A stretch of 64,000 nt of DNA from Candidatus Persebacteraceae bacterium Df01 (GTDB lineage Bacteria > Pseudomonadota > Gammaproteobacteria > Tethybacterales > Persebacteraceae), in contig JANQAO010000001.1 in the NCBI GenBank assembly GCA_030386295.1, forward strand, positions 1 to 64,000, given 5' to 3'. This document shows, one piece after another, positions 35,499-51,852 of the stretch. A program made the position numbers and the translations under genes. Within the stretch, counting starts at the first letter, position 1. The number at the start of each line of letters is the position of its first letter. Below the pieces are notes generated by a model. That model was not told the origin of the DNA and ran no database searches. It worked only from the letters and a program-made list of their open reading frames with translations.

Positions 35499-37292
35499 TT
35501 AATTTTCGTCGCTACGCAACGCAGCCATCAATGCATCCTGAGAAATTTCTACTCGCCCAAACTGTTTCATTCGCTTTTTCCCACTTTTTTGTTTTTCCAA
35601 TAATTTGCGCTTGCGAGTCACATCGCCACCATAGCATTTTGCCGTCACATTTTTACGCATGGCTTTAACCGTTTCGCGAGCGATAATTTTTCCACCAATA
35701 GCCGCCTGCACTGCTACGTCAAACATCTGGCGAGAAATAGAGTTTGTGATTTTAAGCGCCAATGCTCGCCCTCGCGATTGCGCTTCTTCGGCAATGGCCA
35801 TAGAAGACAATGCGTCCATGCGCTCGCCGTTAATGAGAATGTCCAGTCGCACAACTTTAGCTGGTCGAAAAACTTTGAATTCATAATCCATGGACGCATA
35901 GCCCTGAGTTGCTGACTTCAACCGATCAAAAAAGCCGCCTAAAATTTCAGCCAACGGCATTTCGTAAATCATTACCACTTGCAAACTAGCGTAATCCACC
36001 CGCCGCTGCACACCGCGGCACTTGGACGCTAGTGTCATCACTGCTCCCACATGCATACTTGTTGTCACAATAGTCATGTCGGCAATGGGTTCGCGTATTT
36101 CACGGATGCTTCCTGATTCAGGCAGCCGCCCAGGATGGTCCACCAGAATTTCTTCGCCCGCCACGGTCAATACTTGATACACAACTGTCGGCGATGCCAA
36201 TACCAATTCCAAACCATATTCGCGCTCTAGTCGCTCCTGCGTTATTTCCATGTGCAGCATACCCAAAAAACCGCAACGCAAACCAAAACCAAAAGCTGGC
36301 GATTTTTCGGTTTCAAAAACCAATGCTGCATCATTGAGACGCAGTTTTTCCGCTGCTTCACGTAATAACGGATAGTCATTAGGTTGGGCTGGATACAAGC
36401 TAGAAAATACATGAGGCTTGCTTTCTTTAAAACCCTGTAACGGTTTGGCACAAGGACGCCGCACCGCTGTCAGCGTATCGCCAACGCGGGCGGCAGCAAT
36501 ATCCTTGAGACCGGTAATAACGCAACCCACCTCACCAACACTAAGTGATTCGCGCATTTCTAATTTTGGTGTGAATACTCCCAACGAATCGCAGTCACGT
36601 TCTTCACCCGTCACCATGAATCGCACTCGCTGGCGGCGACGCAAACAACCATGCTTGACTCGTACCAATATTACTACACCCAAATATTTGTCAAACCACG
36701 AATCAATGATCAACGCTTGTAATGGCGCCTTCGCATCACCAATAGGCGGCGGCACTCGTGACACAACGGCGGCCAGTAATTCATCCACACCAACGCCAGT
36801 TTTTGCACTCACTGCAATAGCTGCAGAGGCATCTACTCCCGCCATTTCTTCAATTTCACGACACACCCTATCAACGTCAGCTGCGGGTAAGTCAATTTTG
36901 TTAATAACCGGCACAATCTCTATCCCCAATGCCACGGCGATACTACTATTGGCGATAGTTTGCGCCTGCACTCCCTTAGCCGCATCCACCACCAGCAAAG
37001 CGCCCTCACAAGCAGACAAAGAACGCGACACTTCGTACGAAAAATCCACATGCCCCGGTGTATCAATCAGATTAAGCGTATATGCTGATTGCTCGGACTT
37101 GTAATTTAAAGTCGCTGTTTGCGATTTAATGGTAATGCCACGTTCGCGCTCCAACTCCATAGAGTCCAACACCTGTGACTTCATTTCGCGCTCACTAAGA
37201 CCTCCACACCGCTGAATAAGGGCATCTGCCAACGTAGATTTACCGTGGTCAATGTGCGCGATAATGGAAAAATTGCGAATCGTAGTCAGCAT
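35499..37292 (-). CDS. lepA: Elongation factor 4 (LepA)
   Basis: Ribosome-dependent translational GTPase that back-translocates or helps initiation and 30S assembly. 597 aa, normal length. G1 [15 protein letters not shown] (residues ~13-27), G2 [11 protein letters not shown]3 [17 protein letters not shown]4 NKIDLPAAD. Domains II, III and V resemble EF-G. LepA-specific C-terminal features include [20 protein letters not shown] and [14 protein letters not shown]. It starts the leftward lepA-lepB-rnc-era-pdxJ-acpS-nagZ run, 95 nt downstream of sspB. Confidence 0.97.
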
Positions 37293-37387: not shown

Positions 37388-37768
37388 TCAAACAATTTTC
37401 AGTTTAGGTTTTTCGCCTTCATGTGCGCTTTGTTTTTTTTGCGACTGCCCACCTACGGGAGAAAAGGAAAGACCTGAACCGGTTTCTTTTGCAAAAATGC
37501 CAACGATTGCGCCCATCGGCACGTGAACATGAAAAGTAGCACCTTGAAAACGTGCGGTAAAAGAAACCACGTCATCCGCCATAACCATATCACGCACAGC
37601 TTCACCATCAATATTGAGTACCGTGTTTTTTTCCCCCACCGAACTTTTTGGTAAGGAAACGTCGTCACGACCATTCTCAACAATTAAATAAGGCGTGTGT
37701 TTTGTGTCTACGCACCATTCATAAACAGCACGCAAAAGATAAGGACGTATTGTCAAATCTTCGTGCAT
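37388..37768 (-). CDS. sspB: ClpXP adaptor SspB
   Basis: 126-aa adaptor that binds ssrA-tagged proteins and tethers them to ClpXP. Blocks: TIRPYLLRAVYEWCVDTKHT (the family start), LPKSSVGEKNTVLNID, ATFHVHVPMGAIVGIFAKE, then a flexible linker and the ClpX-docking tail KPKLKIV (XB motif). The chosen ATG at 37766-37768 lies 4 nt after sspA; a frame opening at 37795 overlaps sspA and adds no conserved residues. Pairing sspA-sspB directly after petABC is the common arrangement in beta- and gammaproteobacteria. Confidence 0.93.
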   Translation of the reverse strand: MHEDLTIRPYLLRAVYEWCVDTKHTPYLIVENGRDDVSLPKSSVGEKNTVLNIDGEAVRDMVMADDVVSFTARFQGATFHVHVPMGAIVGIFAKETGSGLSFSPVGGQSQKKQSAHEGEKPKLKIV

Positions 37769-37772
37769 TAGC

Positions 37773-38384
37773 TTACTTGCGCATCGCTTTTTCAATGGTA
37801 GTCAACGAATCGTTAAAAGAAGGTCTAGCAAACACCCTCTCAGCATATTTGCTCAACGCCACCGCCTTAGGTGGTAGCGTAATACGATAATGCTCCAGCC
37901 GCCACAACAGTGGCGCCAACGCAGCGTCTAAAATAGTAAACTCTTTATCCACCAAATAATGGTTACCTTTTGAAAGATGATTAACCAATCCTAAAAGCCC
38001 TTCGCGGATTCGCTGTCTCGCAATATCCTGCTTTTGTTTTTTGGCTGTTTTGTTTTCTAACGTGTCAACATGACTAAAAATCTCACGGTCTATCAGATAA
38101 GACATCAATCGTACCTTGGCGCGCAATGTAATATCAACTGGCATCAATTGCGGATGAGGAAAACGATCGTCTAAATATTCGTTGATAATACCCGACTCGT
38201 GTAATTTCACGTCACGGTCAACCAAAACCGGAATTCGATTATATGGATTGTACAAAGCCAATTCTTCAGGCTTGTTGTTCAAATCTACCTCTCGCACATC
38301 AACTTCCATTTGTTTTTCACCCAAAACGATGCGACAACGATGAGAGTATGGGCAATAGCTCCCTGAATAAAAAATAATAGGCAT
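37773..38384 (-). CDS. sspA: Stringent starvation protein A
   Basis: 203-aa glutathione-S-transferase-fold protein that binds RNA polymerase and supports stress and stationary-phase gene expression. The N-terminal thioredoxin-like domain has YSGSYCPYSHRCRIVLGEK (a cysteine pair in the position of the GST active site) and NPYNRIPVLVDRDVKLHESGII; the C-terminal helical domain is from residue ~85. It begins 1 nt after petC and ends 4 nt before sspB. The CPYSHR motif is typical of SspA. No sign of defects. Confidence 0.93.
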   Translation of the reverse strand: MPIIFYSGSYCPYSHRCRIVLGEKQMEVDVREVDLNNKPEELALYNPYNRIPVLVDRDVKLHESGIINEYLDDRFPHPQLMPVDITLRAKVRLMSYLIDREIFSHVDTLENKTAKKQKQDIARQRIREGLLGLVNHLSKGNHYLVDKEFTILDAALAPLLWRLEHYRITLPPKAVALSKYAERVFARPSFNDSLTTIEKAMRK

Positions 38385-38385
38385 A

Positions 38386-39096
38386 TTAGTGGATATCCTT
38401 CCAGTACTCTCGATACAAAAAATAAACTATCAACAAAAACAGCAACAAAAATGCCATCACAAGGTAACCGGTTTTTATTCTTTGTGCGCGCGTCGGCTCA
38501 CCTGCATACGCCAAAAAGCCGACCACGTCAGCAATCATGGCGTCATAGGCTACGACAGACATTTTTCCGGGGCGAATCTGCTTGACTGTGCCGTCAGAAG
38601 TGCGTTCGTAAATGCCTTGCAAGTGAGAAAGCACATGTGGCATGGCAGCATTCTCAAACACAGCGTTATTCCAACCGCTGGGACGGGAATAATCACGGTA
38701 AAAACCCCTTAAGTAAGCATAAAGCCAATCAACACCACGTAAACGAGCAACAAGACTCAAATCCGGAGGACTGGCCTGCCAAAACCATTCTTTACCTTCC
38801 TCTTTTGTCATTGCGCTTACCATCTCGTCAGCTAAGCCTGCTTCATTGTGAATAAGAAAATCTTCAATTTGCCCACCGCTAATTTTTAAATCTTCTGCCA
38901 AGCGACCGTAACGCATATATTTCACACTATGACAACCTTGACAATAATTGGCAAATGCGGCGGCACCGCGTTGCACGGATTCGATATCGTTATAATCAAT
39001 AGGTGCTTGCGACAGAACAGTTTTGCCACCTGCTCCCCACGCTGGCAGCAACGGAAACAACAACAAAAAACAAATCAGAAAACGCGCAAATACCAT
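38386..39096 (-). CDS. petC: Cytochrome c1 of the bc1 complex
   Basis: Membrane-bound c-type cytochrome subunit of complex III, which passes electrons from the Rieske protein to cytochrome c. 236 aa. A signal peptide (residues 1-21) precedes the heme-binding CQGCH (CxxCH) in FANYCQGCHSVKYMRYGRL. The axial Met is probably in AAMPHVLSHLQG. DYSRPSGWNNAVFENAAMPH contains family-conserved residues, and a C-terminal anchor helix (YLVMAFLLLFLLIVYFLYRE) follows. Third gene of petABC, 10 nt after petB and 1 nt before sspA. Confidence 0.94.
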   Translation of the reverse strand: MVFARFLICFLLLFPLLPAWGAGGKTVLSQAPIDYNDIESVQRGAAAFANYCQGCHSVKYMRYGRLAEDLKISGGQIEDFLIHNEAGLADEMVSAMTKEEGKEWFWQASPPDLSLVARLRGVDWLYAYLRGFYRDYSRPSGWNNAVFENAAMPHVLSHLQGIYERTSDGTVKQIRPGKMSVVAYDAMIADVVGFLAYAGEPTRAQRIKTGYLVMAFLLLFLLIVYFLYREYWKDIH

Positions 39097-39106
39097 ACTT
39101 GTATTT

Positions 39107-40339
39107 TTATCGCACTCTAGTCGGAGGTGTTTGCACTTTATCCATTTTTGTGTAAAACGGCATCAAGATAATAAAGCCAAAATACATAACGGAAAATATT
39201 TGTGCGGAAAGTTGCCGTCCCGCACTCGGAGGCAATGCACCTAAAACTCCTAATCCAACGAAGCTCACCACAAAAACCAACAAAGCTGATTTATAAAGCC
39301 AGCCCCGATAACGAATGGAACGTACCAAACCGCCATCAAGCCATGGCAGGAAAAAAAACAAAACAATTGACAAACCCATCGCCAAAACTCCCCAAACTTG
39401 AGTACCTAAAAAAGGTGGCACTGCGCGCAAAATCGCATAGTAAGGCGTGAAATACCAAACTGGCGCAATATGCTCGGGCGTTTTCAAAGGATTTGCTGGC
39501 TCAAAATTAGGATATTCCAAGAAAAACCCTCCCATTTCTGGCGCAAAAAACACAACCGCCGCAAAGAGACAAAGAAAAACCACAGCACAAAAAGTATCCT
39601 TAACGGTGTAATAAGGGTGAAACGGTATTCCATCAAGTGGAAGTCCACTGTTGGAATCTTTTTGCTCTTTTATCTCCACACCATCGGGATTATTAGAGCC
39701 AACCTGATGAAGCGCAATAATGTGCAAAAAAACTAGAACAATGATAAAAAGCGGAATCGCCGCAACGTGGAGTGCAAAAAATCGATTTAACGTAACATCC
39801 GAAATAGCGTAATCACCGCGAATAGTCACGGAAAGCCACTCTCCTATTCCCGGAATCGTAGAAAAAAGGTTAACGATAACCTGCGCCCCCCAGAAGGAGG
39901 TCTGTCCCCAAGGCAACAAATACCCCATAAAAGCTTCGGCCATCAAAGCCAGAAAAATCAACATCCCTAAAATCCATATTAATTCTCGTGGCGCACGATA
40001 TGAACCATATATGAGAGCACGAAACATGTGTAAATATACAACAATAAAGAAAAATGAGGCCCCAGTTGAATGAATGTATCGTATTAGCCATCCCCACTGA
40101 ACATCCCGCATGATATATTCAACAGAGGCAAACGCCCGTTCAGCATCAGGCTTATAGTTCATGGTTAGAAATATGCCGCTAACAATTTGCACTACCAGCA
40201 TCAAAATTGATAAGGCGCCAAATACGTACCATATATTAAAATTTTTGGGGGCATAATACTCGGTAAGGTGTTTCCGAACCGTCTCACGCCATGGAATACG
40301 CTTATCCAGCCAATCACCAATAGCAGTGGTGTTTTTCAC
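39107..40339 (-). CDS. petB: Cytochrome b of the bc1 complex
   Basis: 410-aa integral membrane quinol oxidase subunit. Eight or so transmembrane helices. The two heme ligand pairs are 14-15 residues apart: HSTGASFFFIVVYLH (helix B) and the second pair FFALHVAAIPLFIIVLVFLH (helix D). The Qo-site PEWY loop appears as AP-V-WYF near residue 285 (EHIAPVWYFTPYYAILRAVP, where the usual E is A-P-V). Family blocks GYLLPWGQTSFWGAQVI and FFLPWLDGGLVRSIRYRG are also present. It follows petA by 9 nt and precedes petC by 10 nt. Function in aerobic respiration or other proton-pumping electron transport. Confidence 0.94.
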   Translation of the reverse strand: MKNTTAIGDWLDKRIPWRETVRKHLTEYYAPKNFNIWYVFGALSILMLVVQIVSGIFLTMNYKPDAERAFASVEYIMRDVQWGWLIRYIHSTGASFFFIVVYLHMFRALIYGSYRAPRELIWILGMLIFLALMAEAFMGYLLPWGQTSFWGAQVIVNLFSTIPGIGEWLSVTIRGDYAISDVTLNRFFALHVAAIPLFIIVLVFLHIIALHQVGSNNPDGVEIKEQKDSNSGLPLDGIPFHPYYTVKDTFCAVVFLCLFAAVVFFAPEMGGFFLEYPNFEPANPLKTPEHIAPVWYFTPYYAILRAVPPFLGTQVWGVLAMGLSIVLFFFLPWLDGGLVRSIRYRGWLYKSALLVFVVSFVGLGVLGALPPSAGRQLSAQIFSVMYFGFIILMPFYTKMDKVQTPPTRVR

Positions 40340-40348
40340 GTTGACAAA

Positions 40349-40939
40349 TTAAGCGATTGAAGCGTCCATGCCAATAACAATGTTACCGTCATTGTCATAA
40401 TGGTGAGGTGGGATAAAAAGATTCTTGGGTGCCGGACTGCCCTTCACCACCCTTCCAGCAAAATCAAAAAAAGAACCATGGCAAGCGCATAAAAATCCCT
40501 TTTTCGCCTCTCCAGGTGAACATCCCAAATGAGTACATAAGCCAACTGCGACGAAATATTCGGGGTTAATTGAGCGAGTTTTGTTTTTACAATATTCTGG
40601 CTGTTGAGCATTTTCCGACGAAGGATCTAAAAGATTTTCTTCGTTTTTATTTTCTAAGCTTTCTATCATAAATTCATTACGCCGCAGTATCCATATTGGC
40701 TTTTGCCTCCATAGAACAACCTTCATAGTGCCTTCGTCAATATCCTTCAGCGACACAGTAACAGGAGCCCCAGCAGCCTGCGTCCGCCTACTAGGGCGAA
40801 GGCTCGAAAAAAAAGGAGCCAAAATTGACAGTCCTCCAACTCCTCCCACAACGGAGGATACATTTAGAAGAACACGACGTCCAGTATTAACTGTACTTTT
40901 TTTGCCGCCATCTAAATCTGGCGCACTCTTCTCTTTCAT
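40349..40939 (-). CDS. petA: Rieske iron-sulfur subunit of the bc1 complex
   Basis: 196 aa. An N-terminal twin-arginine-like segment (TGRRVLLNVSSVVGG, residues ~20-34) and one membrane anchor are followed by the [2Fe-2S] domain with CTHLGCSP and CACHGSFFDFAG (Cys and His ligands complete; CACHGS is a slight variant of CPCHGS). It is the first pet gene, but there is only an 18-nt gap to the end of the pilus-like gene upstream, so no separate promoter space exists between them. The middle region is longer and more acidic than usual (MIESLENKNEENLLDPSSE). Confidence 0.95.
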   Translation of the reverse strand: MKEKSAPDLDGGKKSTVNTGRRVLLNVSSVVGGVGGLSILAPFFSSLRPSRRTQAAGAPVTVSLKDIDEGTMKVVLWRQKPIWILRRNEFMIESLENKNEENLLDPSSENAQQPEYCKNKTRSINPEYFVAVGLCTHLGCSPGEAKKGFLCACHGSFFDFAGRVVKGSPAPKNLFIPPHHYDNDGNIVIGMDASIA

Positions 40940-40957
40940 TAAGTCTTCTGAAGTTTT

Positions 40958-41530
40958 TTACTTTTTCTTAACAAGAATGACTGGGTAAGTCTCATCTACC
41001 CCACCATCACTGGAAAGCTTTTGTCCTACCTTAACAACAAACTTTGAATTATTGGCATGATCAATTCCCACAATCTCTCCAGTCCCAGATTTTAAAACAG
41101 AAACCTCAGAAATATTTTCTCTGCTAAAAAAATCATTCTGCTCTTGAGAAGTATAAGACTCTCCGTTTAACCACAATACTGCTTGTTTTTTATTATTATT
41201 GTAAATAAAAGCATTAACGCGTATATCTTCAGTTCGTCCTTGTTCGGGCGCTTCATTTACAGTTGAAAAAATTTCCTCCACTAATATCAGTGGGATAAAT
41301 TCATCTAACTGCAGTGATTCTTCAGCAACCGCACCTTGACGAATAGCTTCCAATATGCGTCTTTGTTCAGCAGTAAAAAAAAGCGCTGGCATATTAGGAG
41401 CGCTGTCTATCTTAATTCCGGCGTTCACCCCTTGTTTCTCGTCAGAAACATTTTGAGCAAAACAGGAATAGTTAACAATTGCACAACCGAAAAAGATTAT
41501 AAATCTAAAACTACTAGCGATATTGTTCAT
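40958..41530 (-). CDS. Secreted MshK-like / GspC-like accessory protein
   Basis: 190 aa. The preferred start is the ATG at 41528-41530 because GGGAG sits 7 nt before it; an ATG at 41560 would overlap the previous stop as ATGA but adds 10 residues ahead of the signal. A Sec signal peptide (residues ~1-26, FIIFFGCAIVNYSCFAQ) is followed by a low-complexity part, TAEQRRILEAIRQGA, and a C-terminal beta domain with FIYNNNKKQAVLWLNGE. The last segment resembles the small periplasmic proteins MshK and PilP, which bind nearby inner-membrane parts of a pilus machine. I base this on pattern and context only. Seventh and last gene of the pilus-like set, just before petA. Confidence 0.55.
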   Translation of the reverse strand: MNNIASSFRFIIFFGCAIVNYSCFAQNVSDEKQGVNAGIKIDSAPNMPALFFTAEQRRILEAIRQGAVAEESLQLDEFIPLILVEEIFSTVNEAPEQGRTEDIRVNAFIYNNNKKQAVLWLNGESYTSQEQNDFFSRENISEVSVLKSGTGEIVGIDHANNSKFVVKVGQKLSSDGGVDETYPVILVKKK

Positions 41531-41556
41531 ATTAATACTCCCATGTGTACGTGTTT

Positions 41557-42222
41557 TCATTGGGAAAGCGCAGCAGATTGGGAATCACTAGCACCACCCA
41601 CGCTTATTTCTCTGTCCGGATCATTCACCCAATACCAAGCAACGGTACAATTAGCTTTCATATTTTCTCTTTCTTCCAACAAAAAATCGTTCTTTATCCT
41701 CTGCAGTGTACATTCAACAGGATATGATACATGCCCAATTTCCTCGGAAAGAGATTGTATAAACATAAATACGTCCAAATCATGCAACATTCCCATTTCT
41801 ATAGTCATGGGCAAAACACTAACACCAATAGAACTATCTTTAGTATATATAGAATATTTTGATTCAAACTCCTGTTGATCCAAAAAAGCGTAGTTGACAG
41901 GAAAAAGTTTCCTCTCATCATTGATAGTTTTCATTTCTTTTACTAAATCAACTAAATTTATCTCTCCAATCACGTCACGATCTACTAAATTCCTGTATTG
42001 CTCAGCGAAGAGTCGCAAAATTTTTCTTTCTCCCTCAATACCCGACAAACGATCCTCATAAGATTTTACGCTTTTTACAAGTGTTGCTTCTTTCTTAGCT
42101 TGATCGTACATGTAATTGAGAGAATATCCACTCAAAATATTAGGCAAAATAACGGCAACAAAAGCCACTAAGCAAACTTTTATGAGAATTTTTTGTTCTC
42201 TCTCTTGAATTTTAATATCCAT
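41557..42222 (-). CDS. PilO/MshJ-like inner-membrane assembly protein
   Basis: 221 aa with a short basic cytoplasmic N-terminus, one membrane helix at residues ~14-33, a coiled coil at ~40-85 and a periplasmic domain. This is the plan of PilO/GspM/MshJ proteins, which form the alignment complex of type IV pilus and type II secretion machines. No strong sequence motif confirms this; the call rests on architecture and place between a PilM/PilN-like gene and the secreted accessory gene. A GGAG ribosome-binding site precedes the ATG. Rich in A+T. Confidence 0.55.
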   Translation of the reverse strand: MDIKIQEREQKILIKVCLVAFVAVILPNILSGYSLNYMYDQAKKEATLVKSVKSYEDRLSGIEGERKILRLFAEQYRNLVDRDVIGEINLVDLVKEMKTINDERKLFPVNYAFLDQQEFESKYSIYTKDSSIGVSVLPMTIEMGMLHDLDVFMFIQSLSEEIGHVSYPVECTLQRIKNDFLLEERENMKANCTVAWYWVNDPDREISVGGASDSQSAALSQ

Positions 42223-42240
42223 TATTTACACTCCAACGTA

Positions 42241-43866
42241 TTATGTTTCTGAAACAAAATTCTCAAAAATACTTTTTTCATACTCTTTCCAAATAACTCT
42301 CAGAACAAACTTACGACTCCGAGGAGCGTCAACAATAGAATTATCATCCAAAGAGCCTTTTATATTTTTCGTGGACATTTCTCTACTGGGAATTTCTAAA
42401 ACCTCAATAAGAATATCCTCTCTCTCTTCAAAAGACTTTACGAATTTTTCAGCACGGTCAGCAACGTCAATGTAATTTTCATTAGGCAAAGGAAGGAACG
42501 TTCCGCTTACTTCTATAATTTGGTACAAATCCTCACCACTAAACACAGCCAAACTGGAAGATTTTTTTTCTCCTCGCACGTTATTGGAAAGATACCAGTC
42601 AAATTTTTCAATGCGAACGTCATTATTTTTAGCCAATCCTTGAGAAAAAAAGTACATCATTTGGGTTGGCGAAATGTTAATATTGTCTAATGCTTTATAT
42701 AAATTAGAAACCGCTCTCATGTTTGTAGGCGAAGAAAGAGGTTCCCCACCCACTCCGCTTACTTCAGCTTGATAATTTTGGCGTAACCTTGCTTCTTGAC
42801 TTTGCAAACTAATTACTGCTCGTGAATGGTCAATATATCCTTTTTTCAGGTAAGAAAGAGGAAAGCTATAAGCATATATTCCATAAACTGCAAAAACAGC
42901 GATAATAACTTTAGCGGCAAATTGAGCTCTATAATATGTTACATAGTTAATTTTAGCGAGTTGCTCTATGTGCAATTCAGAAAACATGGCATGTAATGCC
43001 AAAGAACTGTCTTTCCCCAAATCGCCCACTGGATTTTTCAACCCTATATTTTGAGCTACTGTTGCCACATCGTGAAAATCAAACTTTATTTTTTCCCCAC
43101 CAGAAACTATTTCACGCAACTGTCCTACCATATTACTAGGGGAAATTACTCGCACTGTAATGCCGCCTGCAATTGACATTTTAAGAGAATTCAAATATTG
43201 AAGAGTTCGATCTACTTCTTTCTTAATGAAAGTGCTAATCGAATCAGCACTTTCATCATTAACTTTTGAAACTCTGCTAAATCGCAAATGCCCGTTTGAA
43301 TAATAAGTTTGGCGCAACAATCCTCTTTCATGTATTGTCATTACCAAATTATTTCCCTTCCCGACACCGCCCATAGTTTTAAGCAAGGAACCGGTCAAAT
43401 GGGACACCATATGAACTCCAGCCAAGAAACGTCCACCGCGCGATACGGCTGCCATCCATGGAGAAACTTTATTTTCAGTCAATATGCCAGAAAAAAGAAC
43501 CCAGTCTTCACGCCGCCCTCTTTCTTCACGCCCCTGAACTTGAGACATACTCAACTTACTACCACGAAACAAGTGCTGCATCCGACGAGAATGAAAGTCT
43601 GTCTTATATTTTCCGATCAAGTGGGCCGTTTTTTCAAATCTATAATCTTCGCCAATAATATTAACAAGCAAGTGAAAAGCTTTGCCGTTAAAAACCTTAC
43701 CTTCTTTCTCAATAAAAGCATGGAATCGTGCAATTCCTGATTCATCGTTACTAAATAATGCCAGCCGCTTAATATCGCCTTTTTGCCATGACACTAAGGT
43801 CACATCATTATCGGTAATAAGCAACCCATATCTTTTTTGAAAATTAATAAAATTTGGGAGATTCAT
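42241..43866 (-). CDS. PilM/PilN-like (MshI-like) inner-membrane protein
   Basis: 541 aa. The N-terminal ~310 residues look cytoplasmic and actin-fold-like (FQKRYGLLITDNDVTLVSW opens with the expected strand pattern of MshI/PilM). One membrane helix lies at ~318-336 (KVIIAVFAVYGIYAYSF). It is followed by a coiled coil and a periplasmic ferredoxin-like domain like that of PilN. If right, one polypeptide combines the roles of PilM and PilN. The segment with the GRREDWVLFSGIL block is one I have the impression of seeing in hypothetical proteins beside GspE/GspF genes. The AT-rich gene has an AGGTG ribosome-binding site. Confidence 0.6.
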   Translation of the reverse strand: MNLPNFINFQKRYGLLITDNDVTLVSWQKGDIKRLALFSNDESGIARFHAFIEKEGKVFNGKAFHLLVNIIGEDYRFEKTAHLIGKYKTDFHSRRMQHLFRGSKLSMSQVQGREERGRREDWVLFSGILTENKVSPWMAAVSRGGRFLAGVHMVSHLTGSLLKTMGGVGKGNNLVMTIHERGLLRQTYYSNGHLRFSRVSKVNDESADSISTFIKKEVDRTLQYLNSLKMSIAGGITVRVISPSNMVGQLREIVSGGEKIKFDFHDVATVAQNIGLKNPVGDLGKDSSLALHAMFSELHIEQLAKINYVTYYRAQFAAKVIIAVFAVYGIYAYSFPLSYLKKGYIDHSRAVISLQSQEARLRQNYQAEVSGVGGEPLSSPTNMRAVSNLYKALDNINISPTQMMYFFSQGLAKNNDVRIEKFDWYLSNNVRGEKKSSSLAVFSGEDLYQIIEVSGTFLPLPNENYIDVADRAEKFVKSFEEREDILIEVLEIPSREMSTKNIKGSLDDNSIVDAPRSRKFVLRVIWKEYEKSIFENFVSET

Positions 43867-43887
43867 TTTATAACACCTTATTGTTCA

Positions 43888-45108
43888 TTATCCACCAATA
43901 CTACCGCTACCAACTAAATCATACAAAGGCCCATAAACCGCTATAATAACCCACGCCAAAAGACCGGCCAAAAGAAGCAACATCACAGGCTGAATCATCC
44001 CTTGGGCGGACTCAATAGCTTCGTTAGCATCTCGATCATAATAACTTTTAACTTGATACATAGCAGCGTCTACACCACCTGTTGTTTCACCCAGCTTAAT
44101 CATTCTTATGACCAAAGGGGGGAAAAGACCAGATTCTCTAAAAGCCTGCGATATGGACTGACCGTTTGTTATACTTTCAATAATTTGATCAAGCCCTCTT
44201 GCTACAAATCTATTCCCCAATGCACCGCGAGAAATTTTTAAAGCATCTATAACACTTACTCCGGCACCGTACAATAAACCAAAAACATTTGAAAACCGAG
44301 ACAATAATAATTTCTCAACCACAGGTCCCATACCCGGCACTCTAATCTTAACTTTATCCCAAAAATAATCAGTTCCTGGAATAGTTTTAACTAGGATTTT
44401 CAATGTCACATAAATTCCTATCGCTGTTAATATCAAAAACTTCCATTGATTTTGCAAAAAATCAGACGTGCTTATAAGGGCAATTGTGTAAACAGGCAGG
44501 TCTTGACCCAGAGATTTTAGAAGCCTAGTTAATTGTGGTACCACAAGAACCATTAACGCCCAAGTTGCAAGCAACAGCACAACAAACGCGAACAACGGAT
44601 AACGAACAGCTTTTTTTGTTTTTTTGATTATTTCGTCTTGCCATTTAATATTATCACCAATATTTCTAAGCACTAAATCTAATTCGCCAGAAAATTCTCC
44701 TGCCTCAACCAAACTGACAAACACATCATCAAAAACTTTAGGATGCTGACGCATTGCCTGAGACAACGTCGCACCCTGCTCAACATCTTGGATAATAATA
44801 CCAATGGTATTTCTCAATGAGGGATTAGAAACCGAATCTCGGACATCGGATAGCCCTTCAAGCAAAGGAACCCCACCAGCAACTAGCCGTTCAACATAAA
44901 AACAAAATTGCGACAATTCATCTTTGGTAACTCTTCTTTGAAAAAGCCCTCCACCAACAGATAAACTACCCCCTATTTCATCACTACTGATTAAAGAAAG
45001 GCCAAGTCGATTTACCCTTTTTTCTAAATCAGATAAATTCCTAGCCTCTAGCCTGCCTCTTACAACTTGGCCGGTCTGATTAACCGCGCTATATCGATAA
45101 TTTACCAT
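43888..45108 (-). CDS. Type II secretion/type IV pilus platform protein (GspF/MshG family)
   Basis: 406 aa inner-membrane platform protein that couples the hexameric ATPase to pilus subunit assembly. Two repeated GspF domains: the first with FCFYVERLVAGGVPLLEGL and VEQGATLSQAMRQHPKVFD, the second with LLSRFSNVFGLLYGAGVSVI and ITNGQSISQAFRESGLFPP, followed by IKLGETTGGVDAAMYQV. Three transmembrane helices at ~165-190, ~217-236 and ~370-395. The start is ATG 45106-45108, touching the ATPase stop as TGATG; a TTG one codon upstream is less likely. Best match by pattern is MshG rather than PilC or GspF, given the company it keeps. Confidence 0.88.
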   Translation of the reverse strand: MVNYRYSAVNQTGQVVRGRLEARNLSDLEKRVNRLGLSLISSDEIGGSLSVGGGLFQRRVTKDELSQFCFYVERLVAGGVPLLEGLSDVRDSVSNPSLRNTIGIIIQDVEQGATLSQAMRQHPKVFDDVFVSLVEAGEFSGELDLVLRNIGDNIKWQDEIIKKTKKAVRYPLFAFVVLLLATWALMVLVVPQLTRLLKSLGQDLPVYTIALISTSDFLQNQWKFLILTAIGIYVTLKILVKTIPGTDYFWDKVKIRVPGMGPVVEKLLLSRFSNVFGLLYGAGVSVIDALKISRGALGNRFVARGLDQIIESITNGQSISQAFRESGLFPPLVIRMIKLGETTGGVDAAMYQVKSYYDRDANEAIESAQGMIQPVMLLLLAGLLAWVIIAVYGPLYDLVGSGSIGG

Positions 45109-46886
45109 CAATCACTGCTTTCATTTTGCAGCATACCGTGCAAAAACGAAGTTAAATCAATCACTCGCCCAATTTCTTCCAAAGTGGTCAGCCCCTCAAA
45201 TATTTTCCCCACACCACTTTCTGCCATAGAAACAAAAGCTTTTGTTTCTATTGCTACTTCCTTTATTTCCTTGGCTGTTTTTCTTTGCGTTACTGCTGCA
45301 TCTAATGCTTCATTGAACTTAAGTATTTCCATAATTGCAATGCGTCCACGATACCCTTGGTATTCACAATTCGGGCAACCAACAGGTGAATATACTTTAT
45401 ATTGAGAAATATCATCAGTAAAATTATCTAATATTATTTTTTCTTTCTCTTCATAAGATTCTTTGATTTTTTTACAATGAGGACACAAACGACGAATTAA
45501 CCTTTGCGCAATAACACCGCTGATATTAGTAGCCATAATGTCAGGCAGCACACCTAGATCTTGCAATCTCGGAATAACTGTTATCGCGTCATTAGTATGC
45601 AACGTGGTTAAAACCAAGTGCCCTGTCATAGCTGCTCTAAAAACTTGCTCTGCCGTTTCTTGCTCGCGCACCTCACCCACTAAAATAATGTCCGGATCTT
45701 GCCGTAATATAGAATTAATACCTACTCCCCAGTCCATTTTTCCACTTTCTCCAATGGGAGTCTGACGTATCATTGGAAGAGGATATTCTACAGGGTCTTC
45801 TAACGTCATGATATTGACCCTTTCTGTATTCAAATGCTGAATAATGGAATACAAAGTGGTTGTCTTTCCACTACCCGTAGGCCCGGTCACCATAATGACT
45901 CCATTAGGACGGGAAATAATTAATTCAAGTAATTTTTTTGCTTTATTAGGGAGCCCTAAATTATCAAGCTTCGTTACATTTCTCTGCTGATCAAGAATCC
46001 GCAAGACAAAATTTTCGCCGTGCGTAGTTGGTTGGCAAGCCACACGAAAATCAATAATACGCCCATACAAAGTAAAACTAATACGCCCATCTTGAGGAAG
46101 ACGAGATTCCGCTATATTCATCTCAGAAATTACTTTTAATCGTACAGCCATACTATCCCAGTAACTTCTATGCAAACTTCTTATTTGCCGCAAAACACCA
46201 TCTATCCTATATCTTACTCGAAGAAAGCTCTCTTCTGGCTCAAAATGAATATCTGAGGCTCCACGCTTTACCGCATCATTCAAAAAAGCGTTAACTAGCC
46301 GAACAATAGGATTTGATGACCCATCACCTTGATAATCACTTACCCCACTTCCATCGCTAAAATCACCTATTTCAATTTCTCTAAGTATCCCCTCAATGGT
46401 CAATTCTAATCCGTAATATTCATCAACCGCACGAGATATTTCTGACTCTTCGGCAACCATGAATTCAATTTCATAATCCCCCCCTAGAAAAGCACGTATT
46501 TGATCCGCTAAAACAAAGTCATTGGGATTTGCGACAGCCAAAACAATGGCGCTGTCTTCGGGGCGAAAAGCTATCGGAAAAACGTTATATTGCTTGGCAA
46601 CATCCAACGGCAGTCTTGCCAACACTTCAGGATCAACTGTGATTTTTCTTAAATCAACAACACTAACACCACCACTCTCAGAAAGTATATCCCGAATAGT
46701 CGCTTCTGTTACAAAGCCTAATCGAACTAAAACCCTTCCAAGAGGCTCCTGAGATGATTGTTGTTCATAAAGAGCAATTCGCAACTGATCATCTGAAAGA
46801 GCCCTCTTTTCAAGAAGCCGTTCACCAAGAGGAACTGTGGCTTCTTCTTGATCGCCATCATTTAAATCATCTAAAAAATCAGCCAT
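45108..46886 (-). CDS. GspE/MshE-type assembly ATPase with MshEN domain
   Basis: 592-aa hexameric ATPase that powers pilus or pseudopilus polymerisation. N-terminal MshEN domain (residues ~20-150): PLGERLLEKRALSDDQL followed by a second copy PLGRVLVRLGFVTEATI, which in MshE bind cyclic di-GMP; the first copy has Pro where the consensus has Arg. Then the ATPase core: Walker A MVTGPTGSGKTTTLYS, Asp box, Walker B PDIILVGEVRE, His box, and the tetracysteine zinc motif (RLCPHCKK and VGCPNCEYQGYRG). The AAGGAA ribosome-binding site is good. It stands third in the operon, between the TPR gene and the platform gene. Confidence 0.9.
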   Translation of the reverse strand: MADFLDDLNDGDQEEATVPLGERLLEKRALSDDQLRIALYEQQSSQEPLGRVLVRLGFVTEATIRDILSESGGVSVVDLRKITVDPEVLARLPLDVAKQYNVFPIAFRPEDSAIVLAVANPNDFVLADQIRAFLGGDYEIEFMVAEESEISRAVDEYYGLELTIEGILREIEIGDFSDGSGVSDYQGDGSSNPIVRLVNAFLNDAVKRGASDIHFEPEESFLRVRYRIDGVLRQIRSLHRSYWDSMAVRLKVISEMNIAESRLPQDGRISFTLYGRIIDFRVACQPTTHGENFVLRILDQQRNVTKLDNLGLPNKAKKLLELIISRPNGVIMVTGPTGSGKTTTLYSIIQHLNTERVNIMTLEDPVEYPLPMIRQTPIGESGKMDWGVGINSILRQDPDIILVGEVREQETAEQVFRAAMTGHLVLTTLHTNDAITVIPRLQDLGVLPDIMATNISGVIAQRLIRRLCPHCKKIKESYEEKEKIILDNFTDDISQYKVYSPVGCPNCEYQGYRGRIAIMEILKFNEALDAAVTQRKTAKEIKEVAIETKAFVSMAESGVGKIFEGLTTLEEIGRVIDLTSFLHGMLQNESSD

Positions 46887-46898
46887 TGAATTTCCTTT

Positions 46899-48425
46899 TT
46901 ATTTTCTTAGCTTATTAATTCTTGCTTTGACCTGATTTGCATCAAAGCCAATAACCGAATTTTTTGACAATTTCAAAGATAACTCATAGTAATTAATAGC
47001 CAATTCAGACTTGGCTAAATAGTCTAAGACAACAGCAAGATTGTAAGAATAATCCGGATTACGCAACTCTCTAGAATGAGCCTCAAAGTAAGCTTCTTGA
47101 GCATCCAACCAACGATCATTAGACGCATACAAATTACCCAAAGAAAAATATAAACGACTATCCCAAACAGCATTATCGCCTATGGCTTTTTTCAGAGCAG
47201 CTTCTAATTCATACATGTTTTGATTGGAAATATTATGCAAATTAGCCAAATCAGCAATTGCCACTGAATCAGACGGATAATAATCAAGTATTTGCAAATA
47301 CGTCGCAACCGCCAATTTATACCTTCCACTAGCCACTGCCACAAGAGCAAGCCCGTGAAGCGCATCAATATTTGTTGGGTTTCTTACCAATACCTGCCGA
47401 TACAAAGATTCCGCTTCGGCATAAGAACTCGCTTTATAAAAAGACTGCGCCTGCAATAACAATTTATTTCTTTCCACCCCATCCATAGAAGGCGCTATAT
47501 TAACTTTCTTGTCAGAATTTGATTTTTTATCATCCTCTAATAAGTTCGTTTGCGCAAGTTTTTGACCTTCCACCACCACATCAGCTTCTGCCACCATACT
47601 ATCTTGCCCACTATCAGAAGAATGAATTCTCAAATTGTTTTTCAAGACACTTTCATACGAAGTCAACGCATCTAATTTTTTCTTACGAGCGCGACTTGAT
47701 TCCGCATTAACTATTGCACTTACTTCTTCTTTCTTTACATCCTCACCATCTAATGGCGAAGAAATGCCTTCCTCGATATTTAATTTTTTTTCTTTCTGCC
47801 CCTCATCTTTTAATCGAGGGTCATAACCAGTTAAAATAGCAATCTTTTCAACATACTCTCTCTTTTCTTCTACGCTAGACAAATCGTCTGCCCTTGGTAT
47901 TTGTAATGCAGCAAAATCTATCTCCGCTTGCACATCAATTCTCGGTATAGGCAAAGAAAGAACTCCTTCTTGACTAGAAGCAACCTTAAGTTTTGGCGCC
48001 GCTACTGATCGATTCGAACTGGAAGTTATCTGCGGAGACGAATCACCGCCTCGCAACCCAGAGACAGAATCAAAATTTAACCCTGGGACGACATTATTTG
48101 ACAGGGCAAAATAACTACCCAACGCCACCACGCCTATTAGCGAAACAGAAATCAATTTTTTTCTGCTGCCTCCAGTGTTTTCGGCACTTGACCTTTCGCC
48201 CCCCGCCCTAAATACTTTTGCAGCACCAACATAACTTGTTCCTGCATCAACGGACGGAGCTATCGACTTTTGACTTTCTGCACTAACGATTGTATCAAAG
48301 TCTATGCTTTTTTCGGCACCAGAAACAGATTCAGCAGAAGCTGGCTTTTCTTGAAACACTTCCGAAGAACTTTGAACTTTATTTTCTTCATCCGCTTTTT
48401 TTAGCGAGTTTAATAAGAGACTCAT
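46899..48425 (-). CDS. TPR membrane protein, MshN-like
   Basis: 508 aa. The N-terminus MSLLLNSLKKADEENK is a recurring opening in pilus/secretion-associated TPR proteins. It is followed by a long, Ser/Glu-rich cytoplasmic stretch, a single membrane helix near residues 91-108 (SVSLIGVVALGSYFAL) and a C-terminal periplasmic set of at least four TPR units (AQSFYKASSYAEAESLYRQ, ALHGLALVAVASGRYKLAV, SRLYFSLGNLYASNDRWLD, DYSYNLAVVLDYLAKSELA). TPR proteins at this position (MshN, PilF-type) probably help the secretin or the platform assemble. The ribosome-binding site is AGGG. Confidence 0.65.
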   Translation of the reverse strand: MSLLLNSLKKADEENKVQSSSEVFQEKPASAESVSGAEKSIDFDTIVSAESQKSIAPSVDAGTSYVGAAKVFRAGGERSSAENTGGSRKKLISVSLIGVVALGSYFALSNNVVPGLNFDSVSGLRGGDSSPQITSSSNRSVAAPKLKVASSQEGVLSLPIPRIDVQAEIDFAALQIPRADDLSSVEEKREYVEKIAILTGYDPRLKDEGQKEKKLNIEEGISSPLDGEDVKKEEVSAIVNAESSRARKKKLDALTSYESVLKNNLRIHSSDSGQDSMVAEADVVVEGQKLAQTNLLEDDKKSNSDKKVNIAPSMDGVERNKLLLQAQSFYKASSYAEAESLYRQVLVRNPTNIDALHGLALVAVASGRYKLAVATYLQILDYYPSDSVAIADLANLHNISNQNMYELEAALKKAIGDNAVWDSRLYFSLGNLYASNDRWLDAQEAYFEAHSRELRNPDYSYNLAVVLDYLAKSELAINYYELSLKLSKNSVIGFDANQVKARINKLRK

Positions 48426-48440
48426 ATTTTTCCCTGTTTT

Positions 48441-50366
48441 TTAGCGCGCGTCTTCTTGCTTCGGCGGCAAAATATTATTCTCCTGATCTCGAACAATAAA
48501 GTCAGAATCCGGTAACAATCTTCGATAATCGGAGTAATCACCATAAATACTTGGGTCTTTAATAATCTTTGCCCTGATAAAAACAACAAATTCCGTTTTA
48601 TAGGTTTTTTCGCTTTTATTTTGAAACAGATTACCAATACCCGGCAATTTACTAATTCCAGGAACGGATTGATTATTATCGCCTGTACGATCTTCCAGCA
48701 AACCACCCATCACAGCAATCTCACCATCACGCAATGTCATCACTGACTCCAATTCCCGGACACGGGTTATTGGCACGGAGTTGTCGCCACTCACGCCAGA
48801 AACAGAAGGAGATTGACGATAACCTAAAACGCGAGTAACACTTGGCTTCAAATTCAAAAAAACCTCATCCCCACTAGTAATGTGGGGCAATACGTTCATG
48901 GCAAAACCTACATCTACCGTATTTTCTGTCAATACATAAGTTCGATTCTGCACATTTCCTGTATCTTCGTTGACTTCTTCTTCTACATCCACACTGAAAT
49001 ATACTTCTTCATCAACCACCCGCAGAAGCCCTGGCTGATTATTCAGAACACTAATCCGCGGACTAGAAAGCACTTTAGCATCACCAAATTCTTCTAACAA
49101 TTCAACAGCAGCACTAATATCACCAAGACGAAAAGCCCCCGTAAAAGCGGCGCCAGGCACCGCAGAATTCACAGGAGCGAGGCCACCAGAACGGTCATGA
49201 GTAGCCCGCTGATTGGTTCGAGCAACAGTATAATCCCTTTGGACAGTAACGGTACCATCTGCATTCACCGTTTCCGAATAAGTAAAATCCGTGACCACGT
49301 TATTACTATCTTCTACACTTGAGGGGTTAATGAAAGCTTTATATTCATCGCTCCCCGCAGTAAAAGTCCTAGAAGCAGAGAAAGTAAAATCCTCAACAAT
49401 TCTTTGCAAAGCTGCGACAGCCCCACCAACACCGGCTCCCTTATACAGAGCAAGACCTGTTTCTGACAAACTATTGAATATTGACCAATCAATTCCTTGC
49501 TTATACTCATTGTTAAGAACAACCTCAACAATAGTCGCCTCCAACAAAACCTGCCGCTTAATAATACTCATCGACTCATCAATGTATAACTGTATTTCTT
49601 TTTGCAGCCGCTCAGGAGCATAAACCATTAAAATTCCCGTATTCAAATTAAAATCATATGTACTTGATTCCGGATTAAATTTTGCCGCAGAGTCCAGCGC
49701 ATCCGAAAGTTTTTCAGAATTACCCTTAGCTCCAGCAACCGCGGCTTCTCCATCTGCAGCTTCATATTCCACATCAAGAATAGCTTCGATAGAATCCTCA
49801 AAACTTTCCCAAAAATCATTTGACCCTGTGTTAGTAACGCTTGATGACCCCCCATCACCAACGCCAGAGCTACTCGCAGAAGAACTGAATTCCCTACTTA
49901 TAGACAAATAATCAACATGATAACGCTTATAGTAAGGCTCGTCGTTTTTTACAATTATTGCATTGCCTACGCGCACTACACGAATCGGTATTTGCTCAGA
50001 AATCCTATCTATGATTGCATCCAATGTTTGATCAATTGCACTCATAGTTACCAAACCACCAACGCTAGCATCAACATCCATATTGACGCCCGCATCTCTA
50101 GCAAGAGCAAATAAAAGGTCGCGCACCGGAACGGCGGTCACCACGACATCAAAAGTGTCTGAGCCTCTCTCATTACTCAATGTTGGCACAGTAGGAGTGG
50201 CTTTTACTAAAGCCGGAATACCGTCCCTGTCAGTAGGCTGACTGCTCTCAACCTCTTCAAAGGTCATATGCATTTCGCTGGGCGAGTAATTGGGCGAGCC
50301 ACAACCAGCAAGAAATACGGAAAGCGATGAACTTAAAACAAGTCGTTGCGCTTTGGTCAACTTCAT
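48441..50366 (-). CDS. Secretin lipoprotein, MshL/PilQ type
   Basis: 641-aa outer-membrane secretin subunit through which a pilus or exoprotein would pass. A lipoprotein signal ends in VFLAGC (Cys22). An STN/N0-like domain (DVVVTAVPVRDLLFALARDA) and secretin N1-type domain follow (TMSAIDQTLDAIIDRIS, RQVLLEATIVEVVLNNEY). The C-terminal secretin barrel carries AKVLSSPRISVLNNQPGLLR, GFAMNVLPHITSGDEVFLNL, ITRVRELESVMTLRDGEIAV, MGGLLEDRT and PGISKLPGIGNLFQNKSE. A long Ser/Gly-rich insert lies near residues 160-185. First gene of the 12-gene run; AAGGGA ribosome-binding site. MshL is the closest family by pattern. Confidence 0.88.
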   Translation of the reverse strand: MKLTKAQRLVLSSSLSVFLAGCGSPNYSPSEMHMTFEEVESSQPTDRDGIPALVKATPTVPTLSNERGSDTFDVVVTAVPVRDLLFALARDAGVNMDVDASVGGLVTMSAIDQTLDAIIDRISEQIPIRVVRVGNAIIVKNDEPYYKRYHVDYLSISREFSSSASSSGVGDGGSSSVTNTGSNDFWESFEDSIEAILDVEYEAADGEAAVAGAKGNSEKLSDALDSAAKFNPESSTYDFNLNTGILMVYAPERLQKEIQLYIDESMSIIKRQVLLEATIVEVVLNNEYKQGIDWSIFNSLSETGLALYKGAGVGGAVAALQRIVEDFTFSASRTFTAGSDEYKAFINPSSVEDSNNVVTDFTYSETVNADGTVTVQRDYTVARTNQRATHDRSGGLAPVNSAVPGAAFTGAFRLGDISAAVELLEEFGDAKVLSSPRISVLNNQPGLLRVVDEEVYFSVDVEEEVNEDTGNVQNRTYVLTENTVDVGFAMNVLPHITSGDEVFLNLKPSVTRVLGYRQSPSVSGVSGDNSVPITRVRELESVMTLRDGEIAVMGGLLEDRTGDNNQSVPGISKLPGIGNLFQNKSEKTYKTEFVVFIRAKIIKDPSIYGDYSDYRRLLPDSDFIVRDQENNILPPKQEDAR

Positions 50367-50848
50367 TTTTTATCCCTTCTTTTGCTTAATTCTGATGACA
50401 ACTTGTACCATTCTAACATTAACAAGTTAAGCCAAAAGCACACAATCTTTTTTTGATTGCCTACTGATGTAGCAATTAAACCACTCTCCATACAAAAAGT
50501 CAACAAAATACAATTTCATTCCTTAAGCATTTAGCTTGAAAAGTAATTTTTATATCTTACAGAAAGAAGCGTAGAAACCCACTACCCGCCTGACAAATTT
50601 CATGCTATTATTTTGACAATACGAACCGTGACAATAGTGGCAAAATAAACATAATGGCCGCTTGGTCGTCTGTTTATATATTAATTTTTGCTATTACCTG
50701 CCGCATGTTTGCGTTAATCCGCCCCAATTTCCCGCTACAAGACACGCAGTCCTAGTGCTTTTAATATTTATCTATACCTAACGATAACCAATGCTGTGAC
50801 CTGTATACTCCATTCTTTGTTATTAATTCCTGTATTTTTTCTGTTTAC
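50367..50848. promoter_or_regulatory. Divergent gap between secretin operon and clpB remnant; inverted repeat
   Basis: 482 nt, AT-rich. An inverted repeat AACTTGT (50400-50406) and ACAAGTT (50422-50428) with a 15-nt spacer lies 34-62 nt upstream of the secretin ATG, in a position suitable for an operator of the 12-gene run. A 33-codon frame at about 50654-50755 (MAAWSSVYILIFAITC onward) lacks a convincing ribosome-binding site. No tRNA or riboswitch pattern seen. Promoters for both directions should lie here, but I see no clean -35/-10 pair. Confidence 0.3.
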
Positions 50849-51182
50849 GTGCAACTTACAAAATAACAATTTCGCCTAAAATGCAAGACGCTGTCGGGAC
50901 GGCGCAAATAACGGCGCCAGAGTCGAACCACACATTGTTAGAACCGTCCCATCTGTTGCTAACCATGCTTGACGGCAACATCGAACTAGAGGCATTACTG
51001 ACGCACGCCGGCGATAATGTTGTGCGTATCAAGCGCAACTAAAAAATCAAATTCATGAATTGCCTATTGCGCAGGAAATTTCTGGCATGGTTCAGGCGTC
51101 ACAGCAAACCGCACGACTGCTCAATCTCGCTTATTTGAACGTGAAATATCAGATACTGGTGACAACCCCACCGCCGGTGTAA
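50849..51182 (+). pseudogene. clpB: ClpB chaperone remnant, N-terminal domain
   Basis: Reading across two frames restores the start of ClpB: VQLTK-stop-QFRLK near 50849-50880, then MQDAVGTAQITAPESNHTLL, EPSHLLLTMLDGN, EALLTHAGDN, a one-base shift near 51036-51042 (in-frame TAA) and QLKNQIHELPIAQEISGMVQ, ASQQTARLLNLAY. This is the pattern of the ClpB/Hsp100 N-domain (two repeats with E-P-x-H-L-L in the first). In ClpB the full protein would be ~860 aa; here the sequence ends at TAA 51180-51182 after the frame has lost similarity. At least three lesions are visible. Confidence 0.75.
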
Positions 51183-51184
51183 AA

Positions 51185-51436
51185 CAAAAACACAAATGGA
51201 AAATCTGATTACGCTGGCGAAATAATGTGAGCGCTAATCCGCCCATATCAAAGCCCAAGTAGTCAATGTCTGCTAACTTAGCGATTTGATTGCCATCGCC
51301 GCACCCAAAATCTATTATGCTGCTGACTTGATGGCGGCGAATAATGTCATTAAGTAGTTGCGCCTTGCAGGCTCCTGCCTCCCCCATAAGATCCGCTGCC
51401 TGACGTCAACCAGCTCGAATATCGCCGCCGCCAATA
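51185..51436 (-). pseudogene. Second SAM-methyltransferase remnant, frameshifted
   Basis: Minus-strand translation from 51436 reads YWRRRYSSWLTSGSGSYG, then needs a one-base shift to continue as GEAGACKAQLLND, RHQVSSIIDFGCGDGNQIAK and LADIDYLGFDMGGLALTLF, after which similarity fades near 51240-51190. The same order of motifs (YWxRRY, TSGSGSYG, KAxxLN, IIDFGCGDGNQI) appears in the pseudogene at 7.5-8.2 kb, so the two are paralogues. The C-terminal half is missing. It lies inside the deleted clpB locus, antisense to clpB. Confidence 0.7.
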
Positions 51437-51529
51437 TCGGTCGGAATAACAGGATATGATGACCCAACCGTTCTATTAGATACCTCATCACAAGCGCATT
51501 ATAGGTCTATCTCATGCCGTATATGGCAC

Positions 51530-51852
51530 ACTCGTGGGCAGATTGTTCCAAATGCTATTGCCTCCGTTTGGTATACATATCCCACCCGTCCACCTGTCTT
51601 TGTGGCACTCCCACACGATGCAATGCGTCTCACTCGCACTGGGTTGATACAGGAAGACCGACCGCTAGGTTCTTTTTTATTTTTAGGGCTGGCTGGCGTT
51701 GCTAAGACGATTGTACAAAGCGCTGGCTGAGTTTTTGTTTGATTCGGAAAAACACGCCGCTTGCCAAACTGCTACTGGAAGGCACCTCAAAACCGGCAGC
51801 GCAGTTAAATTTAAATGATTCAAGTGAACCGGAAGCGGTAACGTTAAATTAG
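51530..51852 (+). pseudogene. clpB: ClpB remnant, second AAA module and C-terminus
   Basis: One frame reads RTGLIQEDRPLGSFLFLGLAGVAKT, i.e. the ClpB block before and through the second Walker A with GLAGVAKT in place of GPTGVGKT (quoted by key residues). A shifted frame then gives LYKALAEFLFDSEK, the next ClpB block. A further shift gives PLAKLLLEGTSKPAAQLNLN, which resembles the extreme C-terminus of ClpB, ending at TAG 51850-51852. Several hundred codons between these parts are gone. The residues that bind ATP are mutated. Its stop overlaps the stop of the convergent CinA-domain gene. Confidence 0.72.

Follow-up and report, generated by a model that had tools for sequence, protein, structure and literature searches.

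A probable MSHA-type pilus assembly machine encoded next to petABC-sspAB, with its prepilins elsewhere in the genome, in Candidatus Persebacteraceae bacterium Df01

Filament systems of the MSH class are encoded almost exclusively at one locus, loner genes being allowed; MshM is a mandatory component of the MSH model, and the loci are without a prepilin peptidase (PMC6668835). MSH systems always occur beside another filament system (T4aP, T2SS or Tad), which supplies the peptidase (PMC6668835). MshE drives the extension of the MSHA pili of V. cholerae, and PilT their retraction (PMC7096442), and binding of c-di-GMP by MshE requires Arg9 (PMC4624772).

An MSH-like gene set was analyzed in a window of 64,000 nucleotides of the genome of Candidatus Persebacteraceae bacterium Df01. 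Twelve genes follow one another on the minus strand, seven for an assembly machine and then petABC-sspAB. From MshL down to sspA, the successive gaps are 15, 12, -4, 21, 18, -4, 18, 9, 10, and 1 nt; sspA and sspB, at the end of the run, overlap, and the widest gap anywhere in it is 21 nt. The gene places, the single strand and the small gaps all agree with the first-pass annotation, coordinates included, as does the absence of a pilin, peptidase or PilT gene from the run; all three are found elsewhere in the genome. The row of co-oriented genes extends beyond twelve: lepA (35499-37292) has the same orientation and lies 95 nt beyond sspB. Upstream of MshL, ca. 1.5 kb (50367-51848) is devoid of an intact gene; a short minus-strand ORF in this stretch (51121-51387), with a weak, below cut-off likeness to methyltransferases (E 0.011), is perhaps a decayed gene.

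The first gene of the run (48441-50366) encodes an MshL-like secretin of 641 aa with a lipoprotein-type signal (PF00263, E 3e-36). Its best NCBIfam model is TIGR02519 MshL, at 210 bits under the cut-off of 250.2; one member of the outgroup loci described below (L118) passes this model with 260 bits. The next gene (46899-48425) encodes an MshN-like protein of 508 aa that matches TPR families, and a TPR gene occupies the matching position in most of the 78 outgroup loci. The MshE-like extension ATPase (592 aa; 45108-46886) is over the cut-offs of PF00437 (411 bits), PF05157 and, with its N-terminal MshEN domain, NF053729, as expected of an assembly ATPase of the MshE type. The MshG-like inner-membrane platform protein (407 aa; 43888-45111) matches PF00482 (E 4e-51), a GspF/PilC-type family that is not specific to MshG, and its gene has the same position as in MSH-like loci.

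The 541-aa product of the fifth gene (42241-43866) has no family match in Pfam or NCBIfam, and a PilM-N profile found nothing among PDB sequences. Its AlphaFold model (pLDDT 83.7) combines an actin fold like that of PilM with a long helix (residues 306-371) and a periplasmic alpha/beta domain, and the best PDB match in a fold search was PilM bound to a PilN peptide (5eou, E 3e-12). On the strength of this model, the protein is predicted to be an MshI-like PilM-PilN fusion. The MshJ/PilO-like protein (221 aa; 41557-42222) was assigned with a profile from three genera, which picks out the gene at the matching position in the fetched loci (63 ORFs). The MshK-like periplasmic protein (200 aa; 40958-41560) was assigned by its position after PilO and by its 39% identity to the positional counterpart in a related genome, G002 (locus L045); weak profile matches to it were seen in some outgroup loci.

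The run continues, 18 nt after mshK, with petA for the Rieske subunit (40349-40939; TIGR01416, 195 bits, over cut-off), petB for cytochrome b (410 aa; 39107-40339) and petC for cytochrome c1 (236 aa; 38386-39096), the latter two being 77-78% and 54-55% identical, respectively, to their counterparts in the relatives G001 and G002. They are followed by sspA (37773-38384; NF007016, 180 bits, top among its matches) and sspB (about 37388-37795; PF04386, E 4e-25). The start codon of sspB is uncertain, the listed ORF overlapping sspA by 23 nt.

The residue needed for c-di-GMP binding was followed in an alignment of 81 MshE sequences, in which the Arg9 column was placed without the V. cholerae MshE itself. 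Arg is found at this Arg9-like column in 55 of the 81 sequences, while Pro is present in the window (Pro19), in both other family loci (L045 and L046) and in Oxalobacteraceae loci. Since all three family members have Pro, c-di-GMP control of the family's MshE is not to be assumed.

The genome (1.53 Mb, five contigs, 98% complete) carries the machine on contig C1. It contains one secretin, the MshL-like protein, and two PF00437 proteins over the cut-off, MshE and PilT, and its pilus parts therefore most likely serve one another. A genome search revealed prepilin motifs at C2:44-47 kb and C2:185 kb. The former lie in a prepilin operon (C2:42-55 kb) with, in the order of transcription, a giant 2598-aa protein, four large prepilins of the PCPD type; an nth-like gene comes next. 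The four prepilins are tandem paralogues (G000:C2:42107-46806, i.e., L125:7108-11807) of 357, 398, 444, and about 351 aa, and share the signature GRPYLPCPD...LPW.TLG...D.WGN; the listed start of the fourth falls inside the hydrophobic helix, which may point to a different start or a break in the frame. All are much larger than usual prepilins. A prepilin model (pLDDT 66) has a long N-terminal helix (residues 9-59), and a fold search with this model gave no significant match, the top one being the pilin 1ay2 (E 0.86).

The giant protein (G000:C2:46803-54599, i.e., L125:11804-19600, minus strand) has a PCPD motif near residue 102 and belongs to no family in Pfam or NCBIfam. Its N-terminus, RGFLHVLFLIFAILG, is prepilin-like but lacks Glu5, as in GspK and PilX, and by sequence the protein looks like a GspK/PilX-like prepilin. 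Its length is 3329 aa in G004 and at least 2558 aa in G003, two genomes of the sister family, and roughly 165-1159 aa in positional counterparts from the outgroup; detectable conservation is limited to the ends and a short stretch in the middle. The probable major pilin, of 244 aa, is encoded at 185.4 kb on C2, and its orthologues in G001 and G002 are 60-69% identical. Both it and the PCPD prepilins were assigned by their N-terminal prepilin motif, no MshA-specific model having matched.

The sole prepilin peptidase found, of the PilD type, is encoded at C3:292 kb. PilT (C3:438.9 kb; TIGR01420, 474 bits, cut-off 319) adjoins YggS/ProC-type genes, and no second member of the TIGR01420 family, which would be PilU, was found in the genome. 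ComEC is present, and DNA uptake is therefore possible. The machine had initially been described as pilin-less, with the proviso that its pilins might be elsewhere. With a prepilin operon, the 244-aa pilin, one peptidase and one PilT in the same genome, the description fails at genome scale and the proviso holds: the search proposed at the time, for pilin signals, PilD and PilT, found all of them on C2 and C3.

The order machine-petABC-sspAB is present in all three genera sampled from the family, i.e., in the window's genome, in G002 and in G001 (locus L046); the contig of L045 begins inside the TPR gene, so that the secretin side lies off the contig. The gap between mshK and petA measures 14 nt in L045; in G001 it is 395 nt long and consists largely of a dispersed repeat (L046:15897-16296), with further copies just before MshL and elsewhere in the sampled G001 contigs, L129:9281-9374 being listed for the same repeat. 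The coupling of the machine to pet is not strict, because of this 395-nt stretch. The gene upstream of MshL differs between the window and G001. MshM was not found in the window; in G001, it was not found before MshL either. In the sister family, the giant gene of G004 forms a separate operon with three PCPD prepilin genes, a divergent gene (suhB-like by eye) lying upstream, and G003 has fragments of such an operon; neither petB nor MshE was found in these two genomes (85-87% complete). Because the pilin operon is separate in G004 too, the separation of the pilins may predate the family.

Eighty loci with MshE were fetched, of which 78 (L047-L124) lie outside the family. All 78 have the order MshL-TPR-MshE-MshG-PilMN-PilO, insofar as the genes lie on the contig and are picked up by the profiles. 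Fifty-two outgroup loci have 4 kb or more of sequence beyond PilO. In 51 of these, a prepilin of the PCPD type is encoded no more than 6 kb downstream, though the weakest profile matches may rest on the common N-terminal helix alone, and pet follows the machine in none. Of 211 listed alignments (E <1e-8), 147 reach past that helix, and many of the proteins have the LPCPD and D.WGN motifs. Homologues of the giant's N-terminus precede the prepilin in several outgroup loci, an order retained in the separate pilin operon. MshM lies directly before MshL in 55 of 58 loci, the exceptions being L046, from the window's family, L070, and L087. The last (L087:15088-21648), an unrelated gammaproteobacterial MSH-like locus, has neither MshM nor a prepilin after MshK, and by its gene content appears to be an independent case of locus splitting. 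The comparison of gene order suggested in the first-pass annotation did not turn up the outcome named there as refuting, i.e., pilins in the shared arrangement throughout the relatives: the arrangement occurs in every family member sampled, but without pilins in the run, whereas the outgroups have pilins and no pet.

The bc1 side was inspected at 29 petB loci across the class, excluding the window's own. No machine gene was found upstream of petA at any of the 29 (stretch examined, <1 kb). The idea that rpsI is the usual gene before petA and was displaced by the machine was rejected; rpsI is there at only 3 of the 29 loci, and hence petA has no clear ancestral neighbor.

The seven genes, in our view, likely make up the assembly half of a type IVa pilus of the MSHA type (MSH), the locus of which was broken apart in the ancestor of the family. 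Judging from the gene orders, the normally one-piece MSHA locus has apparently been split in this family, with MshM lost from the locus and the machine now before bc1. The parts, their places and the conservation of their order are observed, as is the absence of a second assembly machine; how the parts would work together is inferred. MshL would form the outer-membrane pore and MshG the platform, with MshE as the motor for extension and PilM-PilN, PilO and MshK as the alignment complex. The filament would be assembled from the prepilins encoded elsewhere, i.e., the 244-aa probable major pilin, the four PCPD prepilins and the GspK/PilX-like giant, the last probably at the tip. All of them would be processed by the single PilD-type peptidase, and the filament retracted by the single PilT, both enzymes being dedicated to one filament, in line with the V. 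cholerae MSHA scheme. Such a pilus might serve in adhesion or DNA uptake. The machine is probably co-transcribed with petABC-sspAB, at least in the window's genus and in G002. It is real and conserved, and mechanistically the pilus would be an ordinary one of unusual organization, with a presumed link to bc1 expression.

In the first-pass annotation, the machine genes were also noted to be richer in A+T, and a transferred machine inserted before bc1 was proposed. The compositional claim is correct: GC3 is 0.31 in the seven machine genes, the lowest in the window, 0.39 in pet/ssp, and 0.45 in the remaining window genes, no machine gene exceeding 0.35 and no other gene outside pet/ssp falling under 0.36. 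This contrast, which is seen in GC as well as in GC3, and the lack of machine-pet linkage in outgroups, are what a foreign machine recently inserted before an intact bc1 operon would predict. Yet the pilin genes on another contig are also low (0.34-0.37 in the C2 prepilin operon and 0.31 for the 244-aa pilin, with neighbors near 0.38-0.45), and low GC3 thus tracks pilus genes and not the position of the run. In the relative with 60% GC, G001, there is no contrast (0.600 in the machine versus 0.591 in pet/ssp). The same block, moreover, occurs in three genera, and the divergence of the machine (72-75% identity between the window and its relatives for MshE and 69% for MshG) is comparable to that of pet/ssp (77-78% for cytochrome b and 59-63% for sspA). 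A recent transfer is therefore highly improbable, and a recent horizontal insertion at the site of the run was rejected on conservation across genera and GC. What remains is a joining of machine and bc1 that is old and conserved, an ancient event in the ancestor of the family.

It is unlikely that the machine is a type II-like protein-secretion device, or one purely for DNA uptake, instead of a surface pilus. The PCPD prepilins do resemble GspG in their N-terminal and D-WGN-Y signatures, Glu5 is missing from the giant as it is from GspK, and ComEC is present. However, TIGR02533 and TIGR02517, the equivalogs of GspE and GspD, are under their cut-offs, the secretin best matches MshL and the ATPase PilB, and the genome encodes a PilT well over its own cut-off. 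Type II systems normally have no retraction ATPase. The gene content would also allow a surface pilus capable of DNA uptake. A further alternative, compatible with a split locus, is that machine and bc1 are mere neighbors, pet having its own promoter and unrelated expression. The repeat-filled gap before petA in G001 is in its favor, as is a possible promoter inside mshK, promoter-like sites being at chance level throughout (36 versus 34.5 expected). It is opposed by the gaps of 18 and 14 nt in two genera, by terminator-like sites that are near chance (16 versus 12.4 expected), and by an order kept over long divergence. We regard this alternative as possible but not probable. More doubtful is the boldest form of the split-locus reading, in which an MSHA-type pilus is the family's only type IV filament, its locus broken, its machine under bc1 control and its assembly following respiratory demand, with a tip pilin of 2.6-3.3 thousand residues that has no described family in the libraries searched.

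Set against the V. cholerae MSHA system and the MSH class, the split MSHA-type locus has in common with them an MshL-like secretin, an MshN-like protein, MshE with MshEN, MshG, and the PilM-PilN/PilO/MshK set, and, here as there, PilT and the peptidase are encoded outside the locus. It differs in being divided into machine and pilin parts, in the absence of MshM from the locus, in that no T4aP, T2SS or Tad machine was found alongside it in the genome, in having Pro at the Arg9-like column of MshE, in a very large tip-like pilin, and in the joining of the machine to petABC. With the MSHA-like gammaproteobacterial loci (L047-L124), it shares the L-N-E-G-I-J(-K) order and prepilins of the PCPD type, whereas these loci have MshM upstream (55/58) and prepilins downstream (51/52). 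From the PilT/PilU family, it has the TIGR01420 protein on C3, and no PilU was found. Specialist attention would be best spent on the pilin operon, with the giant GspK/PilX-like protein that it encodes. An MSH-like machine that is the sole assembly machine found, with its parts scattered and half of them tied, in three genera, to a respiratory operon, departs from the picture of one locus always accompanied by a second filament system (PMC6668835). The family thus provides a natural test of two points: the ability of an MSH pilus to stand alone, and the importance of the linkage with the bc1 operon for the control of the pilus.
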